This document shows, one piece after another, positions 4,381-64,000 of a stretch of DNA of 64,000 nucleotides. Below the pieces are notes generated by a model, which did not search any database, had not been told where the DNA came from, and saw only the letters and a list, made by a program, of their open reading frames with translations. Source of the DNA: Argopecten irradians (lineage: Eukaryota > Mollusca > Bivalvia > Pectinida > Pectinidae); the NCBI RefSeq assembly GCF_041381155.1, contig NC_091135.1, positions 7,369,620-7,433,619 of the forward strand, read 5' to 3'. The translations under genes were made by a program, and so were the position numbers. Every line of letters starts with the position of its first letter. Positions within the stretch are counted from its first letter, which is position 1.

Positions 4381-5208
4381 ATCTGTCAAATTGTCGACAT
4401 TTTGTACATTTATTCAATTTGTTGGATTTGATATATTCAGTACATCCTTAATTTAATGCATATTTTGGATGTTTGCCATGGCAACTACAACTGTAAAATT
4501 AAAAAACACTCATTGTTGTTGAATCAGATAAATAAATCAATAAATAATCGTGTTGAAAATTTCATGGATTTGGGTGCAAAAAAAAGCCCAAAGCATTCAC
4601 ATTTCTACCGTATAACCGGTTAATTTGGCTTGACACAATGCTCGTAATTTGGACTACAAATGAGAAAAGTAAATTTTAGCAGTTTACCATTTTGCAATGT
4701 GTCTATAAGAGTGTATATGATTAGTTGATTCTTAAGTCTATTTTTTTTCGTCGGTCAAATTCCCACGAATACAGCAATACTCTTGAAAATGTTATACGAT
4801 ATTAGTATATTGATTGAGGCAACTGACACGTATCTGATGGAGTGAAGCGAAGGGAAGTAAGTGTGGTAGATTTACCCGAAGTTTGTCTAAAGAACTAAAC
4901 ACATTTACTATCATTGTGTATTATCACTTGTGTATTACTAGTCGATACACTAGAGCAAAAGCGATATATTCAAATTACCAAATTCATTACTAAGAGATTC
5001 GTTGACAAATCACTTCTTTTTGTTGCAATGTTGTATTATGCACTTCATTCCGAATTATACACATATTAAGCAAATATAATTATGATGTACTTAGGACACG
5101 ATAGTAATGTACATTTGCAGTTCTGAACACCGTATCAAGTGTTTTGATACCCAAGTGTAAATCCGTAAAATTCGTAATGTGGTTCGAACATCAATAAATC
5201 ATACTTAC
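4381..5208. other. AT-rich non-coding stretch below the last Ig exon
   Basis: This stretch should be intron or downstream sequence of the minus-strand Ig gene, because the exon at 5209-5469 ends in a good splice donor. I could not find the next exon, which should begin in phase 1. A membrane or tail exon may lie further down or outside the window. Confidence 0.3.
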
Positions 5209-5469
5209 AGTTAACATTAACTGAAACTGCTGCTGTTCCGGTACCGTAGATGTTCGAGACGATACATGTATACTGTCCCGCTTCGGATCTGTCCAGCGTC
5301 TCTAGTGACAAAACCGATCTGGAAGTAATCATGATTCCGCTTTTTTCCCAGACGAATGAACATCCGGGTGTGCAATCAGCGACACATGTGATGTTTGGTA
5401 ATCGCTCACCCTCAAACTTTGTGTAAGAAGTGTCGGTAGGAATAAGTGACAAACGGCTGCCTGGTCCTT
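5209..5469 (-). CDS. Ig-domain exon (third exon found) of a secreted or membrane Ig-superfamily protein
   Basis: This 261-nt exon encodes one immunoglobulin domain. The first Cys lies in NITCVADC, an extra Cys pair context in TPGCSF is followed by the core Trp (VWEKSG), and the second core Cys lies in the typical DRSEAGQYTCIVSN signature. It starts after an acceptor ending ttacag and stops at donor GTAAGTAT. Both edges are phase 1, the usual phase of Ig-domain exons. Joined to the exon at 6803-7174 it reads through a Lys into GPGSRLSLIP, an inter-domain linker style that I associate with bivalve multi-Ig adhesion or immune receptors. The Ig fold is certain in practice; the exact receptor family and ligand are unknown. 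The protein should be outside the cell or on its surface. Confidence 0.85.
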
Positions 5470-6802
5470 CTGTAATAACCCAAGAAGATTAGGATATATA
5501 TTGCATACACAAATCTACAAAATACGTGCAGTACTATATGCGGAGAACTATACTTACAAATCTAGTTAAAAATACATGTAAACAATAGGTCGTTGGAGAG
5601 ATTAATACTTTACATTCACCTTAACTGATCGCTGACCTTTCTACAATAAAAATCTATCATCAATTCTTCAGTTATTGTTTTGATTACTGTAAACCACTTT
5701 CGTGATATATCAATTTTCGGGTTATTTCTCAAGACAGAAAATTCTACTGTTTCTCGAATGATTGCCAGTAAGAGCCCCTGCACGTGAAGTTATGTATTCG
5801 CGAATATTTTAATTTCATATGTTACACTCATTTCTGTTGGTTAGATCTTTGAAGTTATTTTTTCATAGACCGAAAGTTTGTACGTCAAGTATTATGACGT
5901 CATATCTACAAAACGGTTTCGCTGAAAATTTTAAAAGCGAAACAGTCATTGGCCAAACTGAATTAGTGGATAAGATATCACTGCGCCACAACTCAATTTG
6001 TTTTATTGTAAAATTAGTAAACTCTTATACCTAATTAGTACCTGAGTGAGTCATATGAATTAAATTATAAGCAGTATTTTCAATATATTTTGGGGCTACG
6101 AGGTCATAGACTAAAAACGGTAGGACATTCTTCATAGACGCGAAATATTATTGAAAATAAGACTTAAATATCTTGAAGATAATGAAGAGGCAAAATATTT
6201 TATACGCGAAAAGACAGTAGTTTACTTTATATAACTTGTTCAATTTAACTAATATTCAATCTTAAATAATGTCTTTACCAAACAACTCGACTTGACGCGT
6301 GTTAACATTATAACGATCGCTTAAGCGCTACACTAGTACATATTATATAAATCTCCTGAGTTTGCACCCGCGCAGAGACAGTTATAAATGATAGGAGCTG
6401 TGTGATCTAATACATTAGCGGGAACCTTCTCAAGGCTTCACACTCGAGACAAAGAACTGTTCTAGTATTGGAGCGCTTCTGTATAAATAACTATATATAC
6501 TATATATACACTGTATAGCTGTACATGTGTAATATCCCGATCGGTAACGCATAAATTCAAGTTTTATTGATTATTTGAACTATAGACTATTAGCGATCCA
6601 CTGCTTGATTCATAATATGGGCACAGATTCATTCTTATTCTCACCCACTAACCAAGTGTTTACATTGATCTACGTTGGTATCAAATTACATATCAGCAGC
6701 GAGTTATGTTATACAATTAACATTACGTTACTGTACAGAATGTTTCTGGGTTTTGGTCTTGACTTTAAAACTGTTGTATTAAGGAGATAGTTTTATACTC
6801 AC

Positions 6803-13974: not shown

Positions 13975-14105
13975 TTGTCTCTTTGACTTGTGAACTCTTG
14001 TCCTTTTTATAGTGCTATCTCAGTAAGACATGCTAAAGATTCTAAACTCCATCCCGTTACATTATACCGGCAACGGGCCCCACTCCCTTTATACATAACG
14101 TTAAA
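13975..14105 (-). repeat. SINE fragment
   Basis: 'Cttgtcctttttatagtgctatctca', 'agacatgct' and 'cccgttacattataccggcaacggg' match the middle of the long SINE. It lies just before another piece of the same family (14290-14462) in shuffled order. Confidence 0.7.
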
Positions 14106-16349: not shown

Positions 16350-17610
16350 ATTTAAATCCTTGATAAAGCATCAGCTAGAATATTGTCTTTCCCTTTGATA
16401 TTTTTGATGTCAAGATTGTATTCTTGCAAAGTCAAACTCCACCTGAGAATTCTTTGGTTTTTGTTTTTCATTTTCCCAATGAATGTCAAAGGGTTGTGGT
16501 CGGTGAAGACCAACACAGGCACAACTGTAGTGCAGAGATACACATCAAATTGGTTCAAGGCCAAAATCAACGCTAAACATTCTTTCTCAATGGTGGAATA
16601 ATTTCTCTGGTGTTTGTCAAACTTTTTCGAGAAATAACAAATTGGATGGTCAATTTGTTCAGTACCTTCTTGCATCAAAACAGCACCAACACCTACATCA
16701 CTGGCGTCAACAAACAGTTTAAACTGTTTATTAAAATCTGGAGCAGTCAGAACTGGTGAGTTTGATAGTATGGCTTTCAATTTCTCAAATGCAGACTTAC
16801 ATTCGTCTGACCAAACAAATTTGACATTTTTCTTTAACAAAGCAGTAAGTGGAGCTGCTATAACAGAGAAATTTTGACAAAATTTTCTGTAGTATCCAGC
16901 CATACCAAGAAATCTCATCAGCTCTCTCTTGCTTCCAGGAGATGGAAAATCTATAATTGATTCTACTTTGGCCTGAACAGGTTTAACCTGCCCCTGTCCT
17001 ACAACATGGCCTAAAAATTCAACAGTTGCATGACAAAATTCACATTTCAATAAGTTTACAGTCAATTTCATGGTAGTGAGTCTTTCGAAGAATTCACGAA
17101 TCCCGCGTAGATGGTCTTCCCACGTGTCGTGGTAGTTGATGACGTCATCGATGTATCCACCACAGCCTTCCAGGTCTGATATCACGCTGTTAAGAAGACG
17201 ACGTTGAAATGTTGCCGGGGCATTCTTCATACAAACGGCATAACTTTGTACTGGTACAAACCTTGTGAGGTTACAAATGCCGACACTTCTTTAGCTCTTT
17301 CTGTTAATGGCACCTGCCAATATCCTTTCAACAGGTCAAACTTGCTTACGTACTTGGCTTTGCCAACTTTGTCAATACACGAGTCAATCCTTGGAATTGG
17401 ATAAGAGTCTGTTTTACTGACAGAGTTTACTTTTCTGAAGTCAGTACAGAACCGGTATGTCTTGTCTGGCTTTGGTACCAGAACACATGGAGAGCTCCAT
17501 TCACTTTTGCTTGGTTCAATAATATCATTGTCCAACATGTATTGAATTTCTTTCTTTAAGTGTTCTTCTTTCAAAGGATTGACACGGTAAGGATGTTGCT
17601 TGACAGGTGG
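16350..17610 (-). other. Reverse transcriptase and RNase H region of the Gypsy element
   Basis: RT begins near HPYRVNPLKEEHL (about 17600), shows SEWSSPCVLVPKPD and FDLLKGYWQVPL, and has the catalytic YIDDV near 17140-17155. RNase H follows, with FVDASDVGVGAVL, STIEKECLA, VFTDHNPL and the terminal ILADALSR near 16360. The order RT then RNase H is normal; only the integrase position differs from common Gypsy elements. Confidence 0.9.
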
Positions 17611-17909
17611 CGCATCGCCTACATCCACGTCATGATAGATAGCATCTGTTTTGCCTGGTGTATCCGGAAACAAATGATTAAACTCAAGTATCAAATCTTT
17701 CAGTTCATTGCGTTCCTTTTCTGATAGATGACACAGTTTCTTGTCCAAGTTCGCGAGCACATCTGAATTCCGTAACTTAACACTACAGTCTAAACCTACA
17801 TCTTGTACACCACCATCTAAGTCTAATTTACAAATATCAGCTGTACTTTCACTTTGTGATGGTACAGAGGCCAAAGTAGCAATAGGTTGAGAGGTCTTGC
17901 TCTCTTCTC

Positions 17910-18940
17910 TATCTACATATTTCTTAAGCATATTAACATGACATAATTGAGTTTTCTTGCGCCTCCCTGGAGTTTGTACAATGTAGTTAACATCATCAAC
18001 CTTTTTCTCAACAATATAAGGTCCAAAATATCTAGCTTGCAAAGGCTGACCCGGTATTGGTAATAGAGCCAAAATTTTGTCACCTGGATCAAAACTTCTT
18101 GCACGGGCATCTTTATCATACCATGTTTTCATTTTGGTTTGAGTAACGGCCAAATTTTCTTTTGCCAGTTCACATGCCCTTGTCAACCTTTGCTTAAAGT
18201 TAGACACATACTCTAAGAGATTCACTTTAGAATCTTCGTCCAAAATTTTGTCTTTCAAAATTTTCAAAGGACCACGTACAGTATGTCCAAACACAAGTTC
18301 AAATGGACTGAAACCAAGAGATTCTTGTACAGATTCTCTAACGCCAAACAACAACATGTGTATACCTTCGTCCCAATCTCTTTTGTTTTCAAAACAATAA
18401 GATCTCATCATATTCTTCAATGTCTGATGAAAACGTTCTAAAGCACCCTGAGACTCTGGATGATAAGCACTAGACTTATACTGCTTGATCTGGAGCTGGT
18501 ACATGACTTGTTGAAAAATACCAGACATGAAATTCGAACCTTGGTCCGATTGGACAGCTTTTGGAAGACCAACCAATGTAAAGAATTTAACCAAAGCCTT
18601 GACTATGTTAGGGGCCTTAATATTTCTTAGTGGAATGGCTTCAGGAAAGCGTGTGGAAGCACACATAATAGTTAAAAGATACTCATTCCCAGACTTAGTT
18701 TTGGGTAGAGGACCTACACAGTCTATAATGACTCTACTAAATGGTTCCTCAAATGCTGGAATGGGGTGCAAAGGTGCAACAGGGATTTTCTGATTAGGTT
18801 TCCCTACCACCTGACAAGTATGACAAGACCTACAAAAATCAGCCACATCCCGTTTCAACTTGGGCCAAAAGAAGTGATCTAAGATCCTGTTATAAGTCTT
18901 GGTCACACCTAAATGCCCTGCCATAGGTACGTCATGAGAC
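17910..18940 (-). other. Integrase region of the Gypsy element (upstream of RT)
   Basis: The HHCC zinc-binding part (HDVPMAGHLG ... CRSCHTC) lies near 18810-18940. The DDE core is seen as VIIDCVGP near 18720, VQSDQGSNF near 18540 and HPESQGALERFHQT near 18435-18475. A GPY-type C-terminal module (RYFGPYIVEKKV) lies near 18000-18040. Its place before the reverse transcriptase in reading order is the notable point. Confidence 0.9.
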
Positions 18941-19599
18941 AAACTCAGAATATCTTGCCTATACCTCGGTGGGACAACTATTTGATTGACAACTTTCCAG
19001 TCTTCCTCGGGAGACACATCAGGGGGGCGCCACTTGCGCATCAACACACCTGACTGACGGAAGTAACAAACCGGGACTTTCTCAGCCTCTTCCTCACTCA
19101 AAGCCCGATTACACAATAAGGAGATTTCAGGATCTTTCTCCTGTTCTACTATAAGCTCCTCTCTAGACAAAGATGATTTACTCATCATGTCAGACAAAGA
19201 AGTACCCTTGTTAGGAACAACTCTATCACTATCAAAGTCTACAGGATTGCTCAAAAGATCACACTTGCTCCCGACATCCTCTATATCATGAGCCAAGAAA
19301 GTGTCACCTAACCCTGGACTATAATGATCCTCAACTACTGCAACATCAGAAACCTTCTTACTCATTGAACGAGTTACAGCACAAGAAGGGAAAATACCAG
19401 GAAATTCCTGTTGAATAGACTCAGCATCATCTGTTTTATCTGGAATACTGGACACTAAGGGATCTACCCTAACTTTCTCTCCAGCCAAGTCATTGCCTAA
19501 AATGAGCGACACGCCCTCTATGGGAAGTTCCGGTCTAACACCAATGGTTGACAGGCCCAGTAACCAAGTCTGACTTTAAATAAACACAATGGAGAGGCA

Positions 19600-19780
19600 C
19601 ATTAACAAAACCTAACTCTACACCTTGAAGCAAAACACTACTACCAGATGAGGTCTCCTCAGACAAAGGCACTACGCCATCTAATATCAAAGAATGAGAA
19701 GCCCCAGTATCTCGCAAAATCTTCACAGGTTTCAAGTTGGTAATATCACTAGTAAGTGAAACAAAACCTTCAGAAATGAA
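19600..19780 (-). other. Aspartic protease region of the Gypsy element
   Basis: The active-site motif ILRDTGASHSLI is visible near 19683-19722, shortly after the zinc knuckle in reading order. This is a retropepsin of the usual Gypsy kind. Confidence 0.75.
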
Positions 19781-19899
19781 GGGAGAGTACTTCTCCAAGA
19801 CGCTATCAGACTCTGAGCTCTTAATCTCAACAGACACTTTAGAATCTTCCACAATATCACTAAGTTTCTGACTAGGCTTTGACATAGCTAACACAGAAG

Positions 19900-21229
19900 G
19901 AACTGACTGTTTACGCCTTTGCTCCTTACGCTGGAGAGAATAACATTCAGACATAGTATGCCCTACTTTCTTGCAGTAATTACAAACAGGACCAGAAGGA
20001 GACCCCACACCTACCCTATCATCTGTTTTAGAAGCAGACTTAGTTTTATCACCTAATTTAGGTTTGTCGTTGGAAGGGCCACTAAAGGTTGGGTTCCTAG
20101 GCTGACCAAATTTACTAGTACCTGTGGTACTGTTTTTGTCTTGAGAACTGTTTTTAACAAATGAGCCTTTGTGGGTGAGAGCGTAATCATCAGCCATTGT
20201 AGCTGCTTCACTAAGTGTTTCAACTTTTCTCTCATCTAAATGAGTTTTTATGTTTATGTGGACACAACGTTTAAACTCCTCTATCAACAATAATTGCCTC
20301 AATTTACCGAAATCCTCATCAATTTCTTTAGAATCACACCACCTATTAAATAATTGTTCCTTTTCTCTGGCAAATTCTACATGAGTTTGTTCATCTCTCT
20401 TTCTCGAGTTTCGAAATTTCTGGCGATAAGCCTCAGGAACTAACTCATAAGCTTTCAAAATAGCTTTCTTGACTACTTGGTAATTTGAAATATCATCAAC
20501 AGATAAAGAAGAATAAATGTCTCTAGCTTTACCAATCAAGACACTCTGAAGAAGCATTGTAAGCTTATCTTCAGGCCATTTCATACTATCAGCTATTTTC
20601 TCAAAATGTAGAAAATACTTGTCAACTTCTTTCTCTTGAAAAGGAGGAACTAACCTAATATTTCTACTGACATCAAAACCTCTGTTTCCTTGTAAACCCC
20701 TAAAAGTTGGATTACTTGAACCGTCTTGAGAAGCTAGCTCTAATTCTTTAATTCTAAGTTCTGTTTCAGCTTGAATTTTCTGCTTCTCTAGTTCTAACAT
20801 CTGATCTCTCTCGATCTCTTTTTCTTTTAATTTTCTTTCCATTTCTTTTTCTCTTAACTCTCTTTCTTTGTCTATTTCTTTTTCTCTTAACTCCTTTTCT
20901 ATTTCTCTTTCTCTCATTTCTTTCTCTATTTGTTTCATTTTCATTTCATTCTCTATTTGTTTCATTTTCATTTCATGTTCAAGTTCCATTTGTCTAATTT
21001 GGATTTCTGAAGTGACTGTTTCCTCTATACTATCTAATGCACTAGAGTCAAATTTGCCATTGTCAACAAAATATCTTATAATTACATTCCTAATTTCAGC
21101 TTTCCTCAAATTAGTTTTGATAGTAAGGCCTAAATGTTTACCCAATAACAGTAAATCCTTCTTACTAACTTGCAAAAGAACTTCCAGGGATGGCGCTTTA
21201 ACAAACTGTTCTACCTGCATAGTAGTCAT
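19900..21229 (-). other. Gag region of the Gypsy element
   Basis: The Met at 21229 begins a Gag-like region. It contains a long highly charged coiled coil (K/E/R/M-rich heptads near 20750-21000), a capsid-like part (VPPFQEKEVDKYFLHFEKIA near 20600) and a CCHC zinc knuckle (CNYCKKVGHTMSEC near 19945-19990). It would package element RNA. Fossil; coordinates are domain-level. Confidence 0.85.
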
Positions 21230-21333
21230 ATTTATCTAGCTGTTGGTTTCAAATGTAAACTCAAAGTTTGTACACAAATTTTGAAAATTTCTTAATTAAT
21301 TTTTCAAAGTTAGATTTCACAAATTGAATATCG

Positions 21334-23074: not shown

Positions 23075-27176
<4,102 letters not shown>

Positions 27177-35176: not shown

Positions 35177-35182
35177 TTTATT
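35177..35182 (-). terminator. Candidate polyadenylation signal of the modular secreted gene
   Basis: AATAAA on the minus strand lies about 250 nt after the stop codon at 35430. It is the first canonical signal I see in that direction. Confidence 0.35.
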
Positions 35183-35429: not shown

Positions 35430-35483
35430 TCAATGCTTTTTTGCAAATGATCTCAGAAGGTTGAAAAGGCGTTTCCTATAAAT
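35430..35483 (-). CDS. C-terminal exon of the modular gene
   Basis: After acceptor tttattacag the frame reads IYRKRLFNLLRSFAKKH and stops. This is a basic amphipathic tail unlike the repeated modules. It joins the last Lys module in phase 0. Confidence 0.75.
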   Translation of the reverse strand: MYRKRLFNLLRSFAKKH

Positions 35484-38400
35484 CTGTAATAAATAAAAGA
35501 CACTGTTATCAATAAAATCCTAATATCATCCTTCATTTTGTATTCTATTGAACGCACCGTGTTTTCAATTGCTTGATGAAAGTGAGTATTATATATTATT
35601 TATGCAAACTACTCTTGTCAATAAAAAAAAAGTTGATACGAACACCTTTGGCAATATGATTCTCAGAATAAGCAGAAAGACCTTTTGATGATTTTCCCGA
35701 TTATTGATTGATTTGGACCCCTAAATATCTAAAATGGTCTATCAACACTATGGTGCGTCCAAAATATGTACCTGAACTGTAACATCATTTAATATGCAAT
35801 TTCTATAGCAACACTTACATCATCGTCGGTCCGTTGAGCATCAAATGACTTTTTCTTGAACTACAATATCAAAATATGTACACTTAACAACTCAAATATA
35901 CAGACTGAAGTAGCATGGAAATGTTAAAATTTTAATGTAAATTTTTACCATTATATCTTTTACAAAATTATTATATTTAATATTATGTCATGAACAATAT
36001 TTTCTCTCATATCACATTGTTCGCTTAAACTATTGCGTTTTGCTGATTGTTTTGTGGAAAAAAAGAAACACAAACAAAATCACACACACATACATATATG
36101 TACTTACATATCCTTCTGTTGTTCCATCATATCCATCAGTCGCCCAGTCCTAAAATATGAACATAAATGCTTTGCAATATTTTCATTAAAAACTGATATG
36201 TACGCAGTTAATAGGTTTGAAATGCCTAACGGCATCAACAGAAAGACCCTTTATATATTTTATTTATTTCATTCTGAATGAAATGACACTTTTCATATAC
36301 CATAAACGTCTTAGTGACGGCACTTTGTGTTGTTGTGTATAATGCTTTTGAAAGAAAACATTGTAGTAACCGTTTTATGAAGATCTATTAGCAATTTGAT
36401 CGCTAGGTTTTCGTTTCGGCGAGCTTTCCACACTCCTCTAAATAAATAACATGAAGATTATGATTTTACCGATTTTTGATTTGGACCCATAAATATCTAA
36501 AATGGTCTATTGACACTCTGGTGTGTCCAAAAATATATATCTAAACTGTAACTTCATAAATAAATATGGAATTTCTATCCTTAAAAAAAGAAAAAATACT
36601 ACAAAGAAATGCCAACAACACATACATCGGACCGTTCAGCATCAAATGGCTTTTTCTTGACGTACAAATGTACAATATCAAAATATGTACACTAAACAAC
36701 TCAAATACAACAACAACAAAAAAGGGAAAATAAGCTTTAAAAACAATAAACTACAAATCGGTACAAAGAAGGCTACGTCTCAGCTCCCGAAAATGTCATT
36801 TTTGTTCACCGGTACATTCTTCAAAAATTGCGTTTAAAGTGCTTAATATATTGCGCGTTTTGATGGGTTTTTTCGAAAAAAAAGAGAAATAAGAATACTA
36901 TCAAACAAACAAAAATATACTTACAGGCCAATCTGGTGTTCCATCATATCCATAGGTCGTCGTGTACTAAAGTATAAACAGTGAACGCTACGTAATATTT
37001 TCATTAAAACTGAAATGTCATTACGGCAGTTCATAGGTTTATTTATAAGTGAAATGCCAACCAATATACAATGTATCTGTGCGATATTATTAACAGCCAG
37101 AGCATGTAATTCCAGGTAAAAATCAATGCTGACGTTATAAAACTGATTTCTACAGTATCAAACAAATGATAACACTACTTTGTACATTGTTGCCACATTA
37201 TGACATAATCATACATATACCTGATCTGAAACTGGAATTAGACTTCCATGTAAATGGTCAAAATATTTGATATGTTTTAATGAATCCCCCTTTGAAATTT
37301 GATGGAGTGTAACATCGAAATGAATAATCACTGTAAAATAAATGACATAGAAAATCTTAGGTAGAGGACTTTAGCGATTTTTTATTTTGACCACTAAAAT
37401 ATCTATGGCGAAAAAGAAAGGAAAATAACTACAATGTGATATTAACAATACTTACATCATCGTAGGTCCGTTTAGCTGCAAGTGACTTTTTCTTGCCCTA
37501 CAATATCAACATATGTAAACTTAACTCAAATACAGAAAAGAAACAGGAAAATAAGCTTTCAAGATCATAATTTAGCAACCAGTAAAAGGAGGTTACGTCG
37601 CATCTCCCGAAACATGTCATATTTGTTCAATAGTACATTTTTTTTTAAAAATGAGTTCAAAACTTAAATGTAAATGTTTACCATGATATATAATACAAAA
37701 TGATTATATTTAATATTTTGTCATGAACAATATCTTTTAGATATAGTCATTGTTTATATCCTGATATCAATGCCTGAGTTGCAGTGTGTCCCTAAATGAC
37801 CTTAGTTTTCGATTGGCCGTAAAACTCAAACTAACAAACAAACAAAAATGTCATGAACAATATTTTCATGCATATCACATTGTTTGATTAAAATTTTGAG
37901 TTTTTGCTGATTTTGAATTTGTGGGGAAAAAAAAACAAACACACACGCACATATATATATATATCAATCAATGTTTATATGTATATGCGTTTTGATGTTA
38001 TTTTTTCAAAAAAAAGAAAGAAATAATAACACTGATAATAAAACATCAAACAAACAAAATTATACTTACATATCCATCTGTTGTTCCATCATATCCACCA
38101 AAGGTCGTCGTGTACTAAAATATAAACAGTAAATGCTATATAATATTTTCATTAAAACTGAAATGTCATTACGGCAGTTGATAGGTTTATTTGTAAGTGA
38201 AATGCCAACCAATATACAATATATCTGTGAGATATTATTATCAGCCAGTGCATGTTATCCCAGGTTAAAAAATAAATGCTGATGTTATAAAAACGATTTC
38301 TACAGTATCAAACAAATGATAACACGACTTTGTACATTCTTGCCACATTATGACATAATCGTACATATACCTGATCTGAACATAGAATTAGACTTCCATG

Positions 38401-41400
38401 TAAATGGTCAAAATATTTGATATGTTTTAATGAATCCCCCTTTGAAATTTGATGGAGTGACACATCGAAATGAATAATCACTGTAAAATAAATTACGTAG
38501 AAAATCTTAGGTAGATGATATACCTTATCTGAACCTAAAAAAATTGGATTCCTATGCAAATGGACAAAGGGTTTAAAATTGTTTTATGATTCTTTTTTGT
38601 AATTTTGTTCTTCATAATTGACAAAAGTTGAATTTTTCATCTTTCATCTATTTCATTCTACCAGAATGTTTTTCCTATTACCTTTTTCGTATTACATAAT
38701 ATTATACATAGTATACATATCTAAACTGTTACTTATTCTTAAATAAATACGGAATTTAAATGGCTTATAAAAATGAAAAAAAATACAATGTTTTATTTAC
38801 TACACTTACATCATCGTAGGTCCGTTTAGCGTCAAATGACTTTTTCTTGGCCTACAATATCAACATATGTACACTTTACAACTCAAATAAAAAAAGAGGG
38901 AAAAATAAAACAGGAAAATCAGCTTTAAAGATAATAAAACTACAAATCGGTAAAAGAAGACTACGTGTCAGCTCCCGAAAAATGTCATATTTGCTCACCG
39001 GTACATTCTTCAAAAATTGTGTTTAAAATGGTTAATATATTGCGCGTTTTGATTTTTTTTCTCAGAACAAAAAAAGATATAATAACACTGAAAATAAAAC
39101 ATCAAACAACCAAAATCATACTTACATATCCATCTGTTGTTCCATCATACTCATAGGGTGTCGTGTACTTAAATATAAACAGTAAACGCTATATAATATT
39201 TTCACTAAATCTAAACTGTCATTACGGCAGTTCATAGGCTCGTATGCAAGTGAATTGCCTATCAATATACAATTGATGTGTGTGATTACATCTAAACTGC
39301 AATTTCATTTAATATGCAATTTCTATGGCGAAAAAGGAAATAAAAACTACGATGTAATAATATTATTATAATTAACAACACTTACATCATCGTTGGTCCG
39401 TTTAGCGTCAAATGACTTTTTCTTGGCCTATAATATCAACATATGTACACTTTACAACTCAAATAAAAAAAGGAGGGAAAAATAAAACAAGGAAAATCAG
39501 CTTTAAAGATAATAAACTACAAATCGGTAAAAGAAGACTACGTGTCAGCTCCCAAAAAGTGTCATATTTGCTCACCGGTACATTCTTCAAAAATTATTGC
39601 GCGTTTTGATTTTTTTTTCTCAGAACCAAAAAAGAAATTAATAACACTGATAATAAAACATCAAACAAACAAAATCATACTTACATATCCATCTGTTGTT
39701 CCATCATACTCATAGGGTGTCGTGTACTAAAATATAAACAGTAAACGCTATATAATATTTTCATTAAAACTGAAATGTCATTACGGCAGTTGATAGGTTT
39801 ATTTGTAAGTGAAATGCCAAACAATATACAATATATCTGTGAGATATTATTAACAGCCAGAGCATGTAATCCCAGGTAAAAATAAATGCTGACGTTATAA
39901 AAAAGATTTCTACAGTATCAAACAAATGATAACACTACTTTGTACATTGTTGCCACATTATGACATTATCTTTCGTACATCTGAACCAAGAATTGGATTA
40001 CTATGTAAATGGGCAAAACATTTTAAATGGTTTTATGATCCATTTTTGTAATTTTGTTCTTCATAATTAACAGAAAGACGATTTTTTTTTATCTTTTATC
40101 TATTTCAATTCTAATAGAATGTTTTTCCTATTACCTTTTTCGTATTATGTAATATCATATATAGGATACATATTGTAACTAATTCTTAAATAAATATGGA
40201 ATTTCTATGGCTAATAAAATATATATCAAAAGTGATATTTACAACACTTACATCATCGAAGGTCCGTTTAGCCGCCAATTGATGTTTTTCGACCTGCAAT
40301 ATCGATATATGTAAAATTAGCATAGCAAACACAAGAGAACCATGAAAATGAGCTCAAAGCATGGTAAATTACAAATAGGTTGAATGCTACGTCTCATCTT
40401 CCGAAACACGTTATTTTTGGTGACAGGTATATTCTTAATAATATGTTTTAAAAGAGTAAATAGTAAAATGGACATTTGCCACGATAATTATATAGAACAA
40501 ATGCTTACATTTCCTTAGAGCATTAAATAGTATATTTTTAATATCATCTTATTACATGAATCGTTATTTTGTATATAACACAATTAATCAATTTCCATTA
40601 TTATACGCGGTGGCTTTATTGCCCTAGAGTAGAGATTTACAAATATAACCGCTTAAGTGTTTACATATGTATAAATAAGTTAAATAAATTACAGATAACA
40701 CTGTTCGGAATGATTTATACGTGGATGATATATATATATATATATATATATATAGAACAATTTCACTTAGTTCTTGATGATGGTGTCAACCACCAATTGA
40801 TTTTGATTGGTAATTGTCCTACTGCAAATCTCGATAGTATAATTGCATAAGATACTAGAAGTTTCATGAAAATCACAAATTAATCTTTTTCAAAACACAC
40901 AAATTTATATAAAATTCGAGTTCAGAAAAATAGGTGATGCCTTGAACCAATATCGATGTTTTGCAAGAAGTAATATAAACTTGGGAAAAGCAAAACGAGA
41001 GGAATTGACACTCTGAACGGACTTTTTCTTGTCCTACAGTATGAGAATATGGAAATATAAACCCACATACACGTCAGAAGCATGATTATTAGCATATAAT
41101 GAAGTGACACATTGGCAGAATAAACATCACCGTTAGAAGATTACCATTGAGATATATTTAGAATACCAGATGTCAATTAGAAACTTAGTATTAATCCTGT
41201 CGGAAATTAATGTTAATACCATGTCATAAATACTGACCTTGATCTTAGGCGCTTTTCTTTCTACATGACCGCGTTCCTAAAAACAAAAAGAACAAAAAAT
41301 ATAACCTAACTTTTGTAGGTTGGTTAATTAATTTACCGTCCTATAAAAACAGCGGGGCTCATTCAATGGCTCCTCCTCTTCATGTATACAGTGCTATGGT

Positions 41401-43568
41401 ATACTTAAATATGTCCTTGTTGTGACTGTTTGTAACGAGGAATTCATGCCCTTTTTATAGTGTTATCTCACTGAAGCATGCCACCAGGGACACAGAACAT
41501 GCACGTCCACCTGATAACTCTCTATCGACAAACTAGAAAAATAACCAGTCGTCCCACTTCCATTAATCAGGGCGATATAAATATAAATCTATAAAGCTTA
41601 GAGTAAGAACAAAGGATCCAATAGAGAACTGACGCTCTGAACCAACATCGATGTTTTCCAAGAAGCATAATAAACCAAAACAAGATAGGAAATAACAGGT
41701 TCATAGCTCCGTTTAGCCGTGACGCATTTTTTCTTGTCCTACAGTATGGGCATATGGAAACATAAACACACATATACGTCAGAAGCATGATAATTAGCTT
41801 AAAATAAAGTAACAAATTGACAGAATTAACAACACTGTTGGTTATAAGATAATCACTGGAATATATATTACAAATATCTGAGGTCTATTAGAAACTCTGG
41901 AATATAAATCCTGTCGGCAATTAATGTAAATACATAAAAACTGACCTGTTGCACGCGTCTTTCGATGTGGTTGCGTGCCTCATGGTGCCGTTTATTGTCC
42001 TTCTAAAACATAAACAAAAAATAATACAGAATTTTTGTTGGTTGGTTGATTATGTTAACGTTCTATTTCAACAGCGGGGTTCATTCAATGATGCCCCCAC
42101 CCTTCATGTATACAGTGCTTGTTGTGACTGTTTGTAATGAGGAACTCATGTCCTTTTTATCGTGCTACCTTATTGAAGCATGTCACCATGGACACAAAAC
42201 CAGCACATCCGCCCGATCATACCATATTGAAAAAGAAACAACACAACCAGTCGTCCCACTTCATTTAAGGTTGGTGATAAAGATGGAAATTTGGAGTTAG
42301 AACAAAGGATAATTTAACCTGCGGACAACCAGAAAAGAATAAAACAAACCTATTATAAAATAGTGTATAGAAAAAAAAGAATTTAAAATACGCATATCCA
42401 GCATAATATCGGATACACACACAATTGTATAAATTAATAAAACATGAAGATAACTAAAATTGAAATTACATTTCAAACAATTCTCTGTGATATCGCGTAT
42501 GTATTATTACATAGTGCAATGGTTCGAGACATTACCACAAAATGCGCTATATTGTAAAACAATAATTCAATCTAATGACACAAACTCATCAGTCTATAGC
42601 ACAAATTAAAGCATTTTCTATCTAAGAACGAAATTCGAAACGGTATAAAAACAATGACATATGTTTGCATGCAACAACTTTTCCAAACTGCGTTGAGACA
42701 TATCTTTTAACGCAAAATTAAACAAAAAATATTTTAACTTGTACATATTGAAATAGAATTTCAAATGACGTTAGAAAAATTCAGTTGGTTGAATCGAAAG
42801 GAAAAGAATGAAGAAAGTTTCGCAAATGGAAACAATTTAAACTGTGCGAGAATTTTGACATGTTATTTATTCTTCAGTTATCACTTGTAAACCATCAGGT
42901 TTGATGAATTAAATTGTGAAAATCATTCATATCGACAGACACATTTGTATGATGCCTCATAAGAATTAGATACAACACGGGATTTATACACTGTACAATT
43001 CTTGTTTTTATTCCTTATGTTTAGATGAAAACGCAGAAATCACTTTAAATTACTAATAAAAAATGTTAAATTAAATTGTAGATAACATCTTGGCTTTCTG
43101 ATCTGAACGTATGTACTCATTTCACTGCACTGTAGATGTTATTTTAATGCGTTTTTGCAGTAATGCCAAAAATCATTTTCAGCTCTTATTTGTATTTGTA
43201 ATACTAAAACATATTGATTGTAAGTATTGCTCAAAATGTTGGTAATTGTTCGTGGTGAATAACATATTAAAAACTCTTCTTGATTCATGAGTATGAAAAT
43301 TACGGTACATATGACTTTAAAATCAAAATTAAATCTTAAAAAAACTATTGCAAGTGATTGGTCGCCAGTATAACATCATACCTAAATGTGGTAGTTTTGC
43401 AAATATATTATTTGTTTTTACTCTAAAAGCCCTTTTGCAGATATTAATTTCACAAGTGCGATTTCGCTTGTCCTTAACAGCTACCGACTTTTTAACTACT
43501 GTACTTACCAGACTACGGCCGGCGGCCACCGCAAGAAGACAAAACGCAACAATCAAAGTAAACTTCAT
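35430..43568 (-). CDS. Modular secreted protein of alternating 42-nt basic and Tyr/Asp-rich exons
   Basis: I do not recognise this gene. Exons, 5' to 3': 43568-43509 signal peptide; 42002-41946 and 41276-41238 basic (KDNKRHHEARNHIERRVQQ; ERGHVERKAPKIK); 41738-41697 (DKKKCVTAKRSYEP, lying between them; weak donor). A strictly alternating array follows. Lys type: 40293-40252, 39427-39386, 38851-38810, 37497-37456, 35860-35819 (AKKKSFDAKRTYDD and variants). Tyr type: 39726-39685, 39167-39126, 38114-38070, 36966-36925, 36149-36108 (YTTPYEYDGTTDGY and variants). The last exon, 35483-35430, ends in LRSFAKKH and TGA. All are phase 0 with GT-AG borders, mostly GTAAGT donors, so any exon can be skipped or duplicated in frame. 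The product is about 224 residues, exported and highly charged. Matrix, byssal or adhesive protein, or peptide precursor cut at the conserved KR, are guesses. Confidence 0.8.
36625..36663 (-). pseudogene. Decaying Lys-type exon in the modular array
   Basis: It sits exactly where alternation demands a Lys exon, between Tyr exons at 36925 and 36108. It reads VKKKPFDAERSD, but the base before it is not an AG acceptor (tttgtac instead of ttgtag) and it is shorter, with a shifted possible donor GTATGT. It is probably skipped, which keeps the frame. Confidence 0.6.
37775..37845 (+). repeat. SINE 3' end inside an intron of the modular gene
   Basis: 'Tgtccctaaatgaccttag', 'cgattggccgtaaaactc' and a closing (aaac)n run form the tail of a second SINE type, recalled as common in bivalves. 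It reads head to tail on + and is antisense to the host gene. Confidence 0.6.
40727..40754. repeat. (AT)n microsatellite
   Basis: About 14 uninterrupted TA repeats lie in an intron of the modular gene. An open frame across it is spurious. Confidence 0.9.
40992..41033 (-). pseudogene. Decaying module exon in the upstream duplicated block
   Basis: It is a homologue of the exon at 41697-41738. It keeps a good acceptor (atactgtag) and begins DKKKSVQSVNSS, but the second half is rearranged and no GT donor stands at the expected place. It is likely not used. Confidence 0.5.
41335..41572 (-). repeat. SINE remnant in the duplicated block, copy A
   Basis: 'Gccctttttatagtgttatctcactgaagcatgcc' type sequence and 'ccagtcgtcccactt' mark the long SINE. 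It is the duplicate of the remnant at 42040. Confidence 0.7.
42040..42275 (-). repeat. SINE remnant in the duplicated block, copy B
   Basis: It carries the same markers as copy A ('catgtcctttttatcgtgct', 'ccagtcgtcccacttc') and shares with it the unusual insert 'agcggggttcattcaatg', showing common descent by duplication. Confidence 0.7.
42311..43508 (-). other. Intron 1 of the modular gene
   Basis: It is AT-rich, with no module-like exon recognised and no clear repeat. Further divergent small exons could be hidden here. Confidence 0.4.
43509..43568 (-). CDS. Signal-peptide exon of the modular gene
   Basis: Sixty bases encode MKFTLIVAFCLLAVAAGRSL, a clear signal peptide with likely cleavage after AAG or near it, and end at donor GTAAGTAC in phase 0. 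The start is the ATG at 43568; an upstream in-frame GTG is not a plausible animal start. A TATA box lies about 50 bp upstream. Confidence 0.85.
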
Positions 43569-43615: not shown

Positions 43616-43626
43616 TTCTTTATATA
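43616..43626 (-). promoter_or_regulatory. TATA box of the modular gene
   Basis: The minus strand reads GTATATAAAGA about 50 bp before the ATG. This gives a very short leader of perhaps 20-25 nt, as in many strongly expressed secretory genes. Confidence 0.65.
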
Positions 43627-44729: not shown

Positions 44730-44890
44730 TTTAAGAACACTCTCTCAAAAATCGTTTTATGTCTATGGGAACTGTGGTATATTACTGGTGCGTTTTCTTG
44801 TAAACGAGGAACTTTTGCCCTTTTTATAGTGGTATTCCAAACACGCACTACAATCGGTCACTTTATACTTACAATGGTCTGGACTTTGAA
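44730..44890 (-). repeat. Decayed SINE copy
   Basis: 'Gggaactgtggtatatt', 'aacgaggaacttttgccctt' and 'cggtcactttatacttac' follow the order of the long SINE. Confidence 0.6.
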
Positions 44891-45359: not shown

Positions 45360-45530
45360 ATACGCCCTATTAACAGCCAGGGTCATGTAAAGGACGGCCT
45401 CCCATGTATTCGATGTGTAGCGTGTATGTAGAGCGAGATGCGTGCTTTGGGAGACTGCGGTATGTTCGTGTTGTGTCTTCATGTATAGTGGAACTCTTGC
45501 CCTTTTTATAGTGCTATATCACTGAATTTA
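45360..45530 (-). repeat. Long SINE, 3' half
   Basis: It starts with the shared tail 'cgccctattaacagccaggg' and continues through 'cggcctcccatgtattcgat', 'gggagactgcggtatgttcg' and 'gtggaactcttgccctt'. It is well preserved. Confidence 0.85.
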
Positions 45531-50654: not shown

Positions 50655-50800
50655 ATTTACGTCCCATTAACAGCCAGGGTCATGTAAGGGCGTCCTCTCA
50701 TGTATGCGGCCGTGTGTAGCGTGTATATTCGTGTTGTGTCTTCTTGCATAGTGGAACTCTTGCCCTTTTTATAGTGCTATATCACTGAAGCCGAAATCGG
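50655..50800 (-). repeat. Long SINE, 3' half
   Basis: 'Acgtcccattaacagccagg' tail, 'gtatgcggccgtgtgtagc' and 'gtggaactcttgcccttttt' are clear. A block around the 'gggagactgcgg' motif is missing. Confidence 0.85.
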
Positions 50801-51654: not shown

Positions 51655-52475
51655 AGGTTATCACGTCCCGTAACTCTTCCAAATATTGACGGATTTTGAC
51701 CAGTATCAAACCCATCTGAGATCTTATTGATATAAAGCAATATACATAATTTGGTTGAAATTGCATAATAAATACGAAAGTTATTGAACAGTAAGCAAAA
51801 AATTATCTGTTTTGATAATTTTGAAGTCCCGTAACTCTTGTAGATATTAACGGATTTTGACCAGTATCAAACCAATCCAAGATCTCATTGATATAGAGCA
51901 ATAAATCAATTTTGGTTGAAATCGAACAATAAATACTAATGTTATCGAGCGGAAACTATGGATTTATCTGTTTTGACGGTTTTATAGTCCCGTAACTCTC
52001 GCCAATATTGACGGATTTTGACCAGCATCGAACTCATTTGAGATCTTAGTGATTTAAAGATGCTCCACCGCCGACAGAGCATAAATGATATTCTTCATTT
52101 GAACTATAATTAGTGTTTAATCGTGTATACAAATGCCTAATTAACACAAAAAATAATACAAAATAATTTATTTCGCCTTTGGTGCATGCGCAATCAGTAC
52201 TTCATTCCATATAGAATATAGTGCCACGGAATTTTTTCGGGATGCAATTTTTATTTTTCATATTTTTAACATGAATCAAAATTAAAAGCTCAAACCTTTT
52301 TAACGGTGGTAATGGTATAAAGTAAGTAACTTTTGTTAATGAAGAAAAATACTAAATCGTCTCCTCCTGTTTTTCATAGTGAAAAAATACCATTTGTCAG
52401 CGGTGGAGCATCTTAAAAGCATTATACCAAGTTTGGTTGAAATTGGACAATAATCAAATAAAGAATAATTAGGTA
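51655..52475. repeat. Tandem repeat of 161 bp, about three units, interrupted by a MITE
   Basis: 'Gtcccgtaactct' recurs at 51665, 51826 and 51987. Each copy is followed by 'attttgaccag' and later 'tttggttgaaat'. The last unit is split by the MITE at 52058-52412 and resumes after it. Confidence 0.85.
52058..52412. mobile_element. 'AGATGCTCC' MITE nested in the tandem repeat
   Basis: It is 355 bp, flanked by TTAA on both sides, and in the opposite orientation to the copy at 46682. Because neighbouring tandem units show the unoccupied site, both borders can be set exactly. Confidence 0.9.
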
Positions 52476-58404: not shown

Positions 58405-58645
58405 TTCAGGGAGTGGGACGACTGATTCGCCCGTTGTCAATAAATTGATTGGGTGTGGTTTGTTGTTCGCCGTCTTCGGCGGCATGTTTCATTGATATAA
58501 CATACACAAGGGCAAGAGTTCAACTTTACAAAAAGACACAACATGCACCACCGTCTCACAAACGTTTTACACAAGGCCCGGGATGCCGTCCTTAATTATC
58601 CTGGTTGTTGATAGGACGTAAAGATAATCAACCAAACCTAACATG
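58405..58645 (+). repeat. Long SINE, + orientation
   Basis: 'Gggagtgggacgactgattc', 'gcccgttgtcaataa', 'ggcaagagttcaac' and the tail 'ttgttgataggacgtaaag' are in order. It faces the copy at 58805. Confidence 0.85.
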
Positions 58646-60784: not shown

Positions 60785-61475
60785 AGACAAGAGGCCTATA
60801 TTGCTCACATGGTTTATTTCATCAAAAGTTTTACAATTGGAAGTATATAGCGAAATTGCCCTCTTTAGGCCCATCCCTCAGCCGCACCAATTGTATGATT
60901 TTGAATCCCCCACCCCATAAGGATGCTACAAATGCAATAGGAGGGTGTTATCCAATGCTTAGTTCCATATCGTTTACATAGAAATAACAAAATACTCCCT
61001 TTTGGCCCCGCCCCGCCCCGCAGGCCTTCCCGGAGGTTTCAGCCCCACGTATGTACCATTTTTAATGCTATAAATAAAATATGAAAGCTACCCAAAGCTT
61101 AGTGTCAGAGAAGTCGTATATATGGAAATATCCAAATAGACCTATAATGATCGAAAGATAGAAAATAACCAAATACTTCCTTTTGGCCCCGCCCCGCAGG
61201 TCTTCTCGGGGGTTTCAGCCCCACTTATGTGCCATTTTTAATGCTACAAATAAAATATGAAAGCTACCCAAAGCTTAGTGTCAGAGAAGTCGAATATATG
61301 GAAATATCCAAATAGACCTCCTATAATGATCGAAAGATCGATCCTTCCAGTCAAATTTTGATAAACTCCAACCAGCGTTTATGAAGAAGTCAATTATTGA
61401 TAGACGGACGCCGAACGTCGCGGTATCGCATAAGCTCAACTTGATCTTTTGGACTAGATAGGTGAACAAAAAAAG
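60785..61475. repeat. Dispersed bivalve-type repeat with ~181-bp tandem core
   Basis: It opens 'aagaggcctatattgctcac' and closes with 'agctcaacttgatcttttgg' and 'ggtgaac', a pair of edges I recall from many bivalve sequences. Inside, 'ccttttggccccgccccgc', 'ggtttcagccccac' and 'agctacccaaagctta' occur twice, starting near 60998 and 61179. The GC-rich runs stand out from the AT-rich surroundings. No protein is encoded. Confidence 0.7.
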
Positions 61476-63804: not shown

Positions 63805-64000
63805 ATCCCTAACGTCCCATTAGCAGCCAGGGTCATGTAAGGAGGGCCTCCCTGTGTGTAGTGTGTATGAAGTGCGTGATGAGTGTTTTGGGAGACTGCG
63901 GTATGTTCGTGTTGTGTCTTCTTGTATAGTGGAATTATCGCCCTTTTTACAGTGTTATGTCACTGAAACATGCTGCCGAAGACACAAAGCAACACACCCC
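63805..64000 (-). repeat. Long SINE, cut by the window end
   Basis: 'Aacgtcccattagcagccag', 'gggcctccctgtgtgtagtg', 'gggagactgcggtatgttcg', 'cactgaaacatgctgccgaag' and 'cacaaagcaacacacccc' are close to what I take as the family consensus. Its head lies beyond the window. Confidence 0.9.

Follow-up and report, generated by a model that had tools for sequence, protein, structure and literature searches.

An uncharacterised bay scallop gene assembled largely from small in-frame exons of two repeated classes

Structure of the gene

The window analysed here is a stretch of 64,000 nucleotides from the bay scallop, Argopecten irradians. Between positions 43568 and 35430 of its minus strand (C2:7405049-7413187 in the assembly) lie 14 exons that join into a single frame of 210 residues, with every junction in phase 0. 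The chain of exons was drawn up from the DNA ahead of any database search, and the splice junctions rest on the sequence together with a database model, isoform X4, which is described below. The chain opens with a signal-peptide-like exon and two basic ones, continues with five exons each of a lysine (K) class and a tyrosine (Y) class, and closes with a basic C-terminal exon. The sizes are 60, 57 and 39 nt, nine of 42 nt, one of 45 nt and 54 nt (stop included), 11 of the 14 being 39-45 nt long, and the introns range from 218 to 1506 nt. All ten K and Y exons are in phase 0, with AG in front and GTAAGT behind.

Exon 1 (43509..43568, 60 nt; all positions within the gene refer to the minus strand) encodes MKFTLIVAFCLLAVAAGRSL, which by eye resembles a signal peptide, and the TATA box TATATAA (43620..43626) begins 58 nt 5' of its ATG. 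It is followed by the basic exons 2 (41946..42002, 57 nt, KDNKRHHEARNHIERRVQQ) and 3 (41238..41276, 39 nt, ERGHVERKAPKIK), both of which sit outside the K/Y alternation. The repeated part then runs through K1 (40252..40293, VEKHQLAAKRTFDD), Y1 (39685..39726, YTTPYEYDGTTDGY), K2 (39386..39427, AKKKSFDAKRTNDD), Y2 (39126..39167, again YTTPYEYDGTTDGY, the exon being identical to Y1 at 42 of 42 nucleotides), K3 (38810..38851, AKKKSFDAKRTYDD), Y3 (38070..38114, YTTTFGGYDGTTDGY, the single exon of 45 nt), K4 (37456..37497, GKKKSLAAKRTYDD), Y4 (36925..36966, YTTTYGYDGTPDWP), Y5 (36108..36149, DWATDGYDGTTEGY) and K6 (35819..35860, FKKKSFDAQRTDDD). The C-terminal exon (35430..35483) encodes the basic sequence IYRKRLFNLLRSFAKKH and the stop, and polyadenylation-like signals lie 231 nt (ATTAAA, 35199-35194) and 248 nt (AATAAA, 35177..35182) past the stop. 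Y2 and K3 are predicted from the DNA only and are absent from isoform X4, and the other 12 exons are given by both the sequence and the X4 model.

The original prediction was of a signal-peptide exon with a TATA box, a series of 42-nt phase-0 exons with one of 45 nt, and a basic exon closing the gene, and in these respects it agrees with what is found. It had also described the alternation of K and Y exons as strict, which does not hold. Between Y4 and Y5 stands a K exon that no longer has its acceptor AG, so that Y4 joins Y5 directly. This degraded exon, K5 (about 36626..36667, core VKKKPFDAERSD), has GTATGT as its donor and does not appear in X4.

Support for the gene

Open 42-nt segments lying between AG and GTAAGT are rare by chance. 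The minus strand of the window contains ten, nine of them within the gene, and the plus strand contains none, whereas 30 first-order Markov simulations of a 64-kb strand averaged 0.43 and never exceeded 2. A simple tandem-repeat artefact was also considered and rejected, as Tandem Repeats Finder gives one array in the span of the gene, an intronic AT run at 40728-40754.

The sole database match is a 182-residue Argopecten irradians protein, 'uncharacterized protein isoform X4'. Removing Y2 and K3 from the predicted chain gives X4 letter for letter, and there is no other run of adjacent exons that can be dropped with this result. X4 is thus one Y+K pair (28 residues) shorter than the full chain, with 12 of the 14 exons in the model. 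Alternative isoforms in the NCBI collection usually have transcript support behind them, and the name X4 implies that there are further isoform models of this gene. It is close to certain that this is a real gene, annotated yet uncharacterised, with the anatomy given above. Its architecture, with two classes of micro-exon, is unusual. Since X4 lacks exactly one pair, the exons of which are intact in the DNA, the modelled isoform suggests that the Y2+K3 pair can be skipped in splicing.

The predicted protein

The product is probably a small secreted protein, judging from its sequence. It contains one cysteine in 210 residues, which lies within the signal peptide. The chain past residue 19 has a pI of 9.0, with 13.6% Asp, 13.1% Lys, 13.1% Thr and 9.9% Tyr. 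The two classes of module differ strongly in composition: the five pooled K modules have a pI of 9.66 and 24% Lys, and the five pooled Y modules a pI of 4.05 and 23% Tyr. The net charges are 0, +2, +2, +3 and 0 for the K modules and -3, -3, -2, -2 and -4 for the Y modules. The alternating charge proposed for this protein is therefore present as a tendency and is partial rather than strict, K1 and K6 having a net charge of 0 and Y4 adjoining Y5.

The AlphaFold2 single-sequence model of X4 is of low confidence, with a mean pLDDT of 53.4 and a pTM of 0.21. Over residues 59-137 and 140-157 the pLDDT falls under 50, as in a disordered chain, and the product is predicted to be disordered. One helix is modelled at residues 3-47, across the signal peptide and exons 2-3, and another in the C-terminal exon at residues 163-181.

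Growth and decay of the exon array

Local alignments among the repeat segments within the gene show 74-93% identity. The segments concerned contain both exon and intron, as in 38518-38035 and 37368-36889 (91% identity) and in 39845-39371 and 39286-38795 (89%). The introns were duplicated along with the exons, which shows that the array grew by tandem duplication of genomic DNA. The original prediction had pointed out that one phase-0 exon per repeat would allow the protein to be lengthened by DNA duplication, or trimmed by exon skipping, without loss of frame. The exon structure fits this design and the duplicated introns show the lengthening; the trimming is suggested, by X4.

The segments that hold exons 2 and 3 are also alike (416 of 511 aligned bases identical), and each is followed by a K-like remnant, both remnants lying between exon 2 and K1. 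The first, K0a (41697..41738, DKKKCVTAKRSYEP, nhmmer E 8.8e-7), still has an acceptor AG and a 42-nt frame that is open, and has GTTATT in the place of the donor. In the second, K0b (40992..41033, DKKKSVQSVNSSRF in register, nhmmer E 9.1e-4 over 41051-41019), the acceptor AG is kept, the Lys-Arg is gone and the donor place reads GCTTTT. Neither is in X4. The array is therefore a mixture of intact, weakened and dead exons.

Variable alignment columns were compared between exons and their flanking introns in five groupings, with K5 excluded. The copies share a history and the counts are small, so that the tests are weak and the p values rough: the K exons are less variable than their introns (15/42 vs 44/72 columns, p 0.012), as are K2, 3, 4 and 6 taken by themselves (7/42 vs 30/66, p 0.003), the Y exons show no clear difference (18/42 vs 98/175, p 0.17), and in the smaller Y groupings the counts are 10/42 vs 78/239 (Y1-4, p 0.28) and 10/42 vs 47/333 (Y1, 3 and 4, p 0.11, the exons being more variable). 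One pair, Y1 and Y4, shares 33 of 42 exon bases as against 187 of 200 bases just upstream. Summed over ten pairs each, the Y exons have a pN of 0.172 and a pS of 0.211, and the K exons a pN of 0.188 and a pS of 0.129. These figures hint that the K exons are held and the Y exons are free to vary, from which purifying selection at the amino-acid level would not follow.

Searches for relatives

No significant family was found for the protein in Pfam (best E 1.1), the PDB (best E 0.12) or NCBIfam (a library for prokaryotes, no match), and protein searches, in which shared five-residue words were required so that diverged scallop orthologues could escape, picked out nothing but the gene's own model (1 of 3651 candidates in one search, 1 of 1 in the other). 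The view that these modules belong to no named family therefore stands within these searches.

The gene is apparently single-copy in the bay scallop. In the 846-Mb assembly, DNA from its 5' and 3' ends matched only itself, and a whole-genome search with the Y unit gave five matches, all inside the gene; such a search scores the best candidates only, so that diverged paralogues could escape it. A genome-wide pattern for the K exons, with three mismatches allowed, found the five K exons of the chain and nothing else, and the Y pattern found four of the five Y exons (Y4 was missed) and nothing else, both backward controls giving 0. Comparison of the protein with the genome, at E up to 10, gave eight rows, seven of them in the gene. 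The eighth (E 4.45, C8:4063095-4066406) was rejected as a chance match to a minisatellite of LDCDGTEDNFFVK repeats that is open in several frames on both strands. The 200 kb of flanking DNA gave no tblastn match with an E value of 1 or less, and no exon of either class turned up there (best E 0.31 for K and 3.2 for Y).

Exon 2 and its upstream DNA were also used as a probe, and the result was rejected as a sign of paralogues: of 288 candidates the best 40 were scored, two of which were the probe and the segment with exon 3, and the other 38, elsewhere in the genome, reflect an interspersed repeat. This repeat, of about 150 bp, lies in the segments before exons 2 and 3 (42265-42118 and 41564-41416, minus strand), and parts of it occur at 44798-44835, 45461-45526, 50732-50791, 58478-58543, 63902-63973 and 13992-14033.

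Other features of the region

The minus strand at 16352-21235 carries a Ty3/Gypsy-like retrotransposon in which integrase domains precede the reverse transcriptase and RNase H. Its first, gag-like open reading frame has a SCAN match, and the reverse transcriptase match is split between two open reading frames. We take this order of domains to recall the Gmr1-like group. An immunoglobulin-like domain lies in an open frame at 5135-5488 on the minus strand (I-set E 1.1e-5, above the cut-off) and is likely to belong to a larger gene. Several open reading frames, in both orientations, that resemble Hsp70-type ATPases and are presumably HSPA12-like lie to the left of the window, at a distance of about 26 to 97 kb. 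Tandem arrays occur at 23960-24580, 51665-52033 and 61010-61338, and their periods are close to 146-149, 161 and 176 bp.

Possible functions of the product

A function in shell, byssus or adhesive, as in the original prediction, is plausible. In more general terms, it is a distinct possibility, somewhat short of probable, that the product is a secreted extracellular polyampholyte material, in the shell organic layer, periostracum, juvenile byssus, mucus or similar. The secreted chain would stay disordered and act as an extracellular polyampholyte; it could self-associate through its alternating charge and its Tyr/Lys chemistry, the content of Tyr and Lys favouring oxidative cross-linking, and the number of pairs would set the chain length of the material. 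Duplicating or skipping one K+Y pair would shift the length by 28 residues and keep both frame and alternation, a change of length without loss of frame being possible because every exon is in phase 0. Rather more tentatively, this may be a two-class micro-exon gene evolved in a mollusc, with oppositely charged 14-residue modules on separate phase-0 exons, in which splicing adds or drops whole K+Y pairs to give graded lengths of polyampholyte for a secreted material. The disorder-like pLDDT, the oppositely charged modules and the protein searches that gave only the gene's own model all speak for a material, and lineage-specific sequence is common among secreted materials. Against it, the alternation of charge is partial, the lack of Cys outside the signal peptide is unlike the byssal thread protein Sbp5-2, the in-register Lys-Arg sites fit a processed precursor equally well, and the Y modules are about as variable as the introns. 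Among open reading frames of at least 110 aa in 100 kb on each side, a minority of which could be identified, there was no recognised shell or byssus gene.

The in-register Lys-Arg sites, which did not figure in the original prediction, suggest a cleaved precursor as an alternative. This second explanation is possible rather than probable: the protein would be a multi-peptide precursor, cut by proprotein convertases after the Lys-Arg and possibly after Lys-Lys-Lys, to release acidic peptides, alike and rich in Tyr, about 26-27 residues in length, the Tyr of which could be sulfated in their acidic surroundings, and a short cationic C-terminal peptide. Multi-copy neuropeptide precursors have a signal peptide and repeats bounded by Lys-Arg, and the scallop chain resembles them in having a signal-peptide-like exon and dibasic-bounded repeats. 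Cutting the 210-residue chain in silico at Lys-Arg gives repeats of 28, 28 and 29 residues in register, each starting T[F/N/Y]DDYTT, and leaves LFNLLRSFAKKH at the C-terminus after RKR; the fourth fragment, however, is 51 residues long and out of pattern, and any repeat that holds Lys-Arg would give a regular spacing of this kind. Lys-Arg is present in K1-K4 (four of the five K exons in the chain) and also in K0a despite its decay, and K1 has lost KKK and retained AKRTFDD, but the pair is gone from K5 (ER), K6 (QR) and K0b. Over all eight K copies, decayed ones included, Lys-Arg is found in five and KKK in seven, counts that do not decide between a material and a precursor. A Gly in front of KKK, which would make an amidation-like end, is found in K4 but in no other of the five K modules of the chain, and KKK stands beside Lys-Arg in a way that differs from neuropeptide precursors. 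Neuropeptides also tend to be conserved across genera, whereas the protein searches gave no relative. We slightly favour a material over a precursor cut at Lys-Arg, because the protein searches found no conserved peptide outside the species and because amidation-type ends are rare (one of five K modules).

Two further explanations have less in their favour. It is unlikely that this is a host-defence peptide gene, in which the repeats would serve as a pro-piece and cutting at RKR would free a helical, cationic peptide from the C-terminus. The C-terminal exon does have a charge of about +5.8 over 17 residues, with DDD before it and RKR inside, and its helix in the X4 model (residues 163-181) has pLDDT values of 64, 86 and 74 in blocks of ten residues. 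However, its amphipathicity is unexceptional, the helical moments of 0.64, 0.55 and 0.40 (cuts of 13, 15 and 17 residues) being reached by 5.7%, 12% and 29% of shuffled sequences, a helix is modelled at residues 3-47 as well, and the chain is net basic beyond its signal peptide, so that a pro-piece would not simply neutralise the C-terminal peptide. Least likely of all is a decaying or selectively neutral repeat locus of little function, with its frames mostly inherited through duplication. One K exon without an acceptor and two K-like remnants without donors are in keeping with this, as are Y exons that vary about as much as their flanking introns and a summed pN that is similar to pS or larger. 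Set against this, frame, phase and splice sites are kept in 14 of 14 exons of the chain, 12 of which form the database model, and the K exons other than K5 are less variable than the introns, with p values that are rough on account of shared history.

Comparison with known systems

In architecture, the gene is most like the micro-exon genes (MEGs) of Schistosoma, the parallel being one of architecture, with no sequence similarity shown. These genes consist largely of tiny exons, of 3-36 bp and open to alternative splicing, and encode small secreted proteins that have no relevant homologues, the MEG isoforms studied being disordered (PMC10399815). The scallop gene may be comparable in some of these respects: exon 1 is signal-peptide-like by eye, protein searches gave only the gene's own model, and isoform X4 lacks Y2 and K3, the exons of which are intact in the DNA. 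It differs in having modular exons of 42-45 nt in two repeat classes, and none of its 14 exons is 36 nt or shorter. The bicycle effector genes of aphids also produce secreted proteins from many micro-exons, and differ from the scallop gene in exon phase and type of protein. In tropoelastin, Lys-bearing modules alternate with others on small in-frame cassette exons that are alternatively spliced; the other modules of elastin are hydrophobic, whereas those of the scallop protein are acidic and Tyr-rich, in units of 14-15 residues.

Molluscan DOPA foot proteins of the Dpfp1 type have a Tyr-bearing repeat motif. Tyr-bearing repeats are thus common to both, but the protein search found no homologue. 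For Dreissena Dpfp-1 itself, DOPA content and variants are mentioned in PMC2894042. The scallop byssal protein Sbp5-2 is secreted and has tandem repeat motifs with acidic residues, each motif containing two Cys and the protein 8.4% Cys overall, according to PMC9117251. The present product, by contrast, is free of Cys past the signal peptide. A byssus role may still be entertained because other byssus proteins of C. farreri are reported without annotation (PMC5700196).

If isoforms with differing numbers of pairs are real, then one gene would tune both the length and the charge pattern of a disordered secreted protein, by tandem duplication of an exon pair across generations and by skipping of the same pair in RNA. 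The presence of intact, weakened and dead exons in one locus means that the birth and death of micro-exons may be read directly, and the polyampholyte sequence that the gene provides is well defined and could be used in materials tests.
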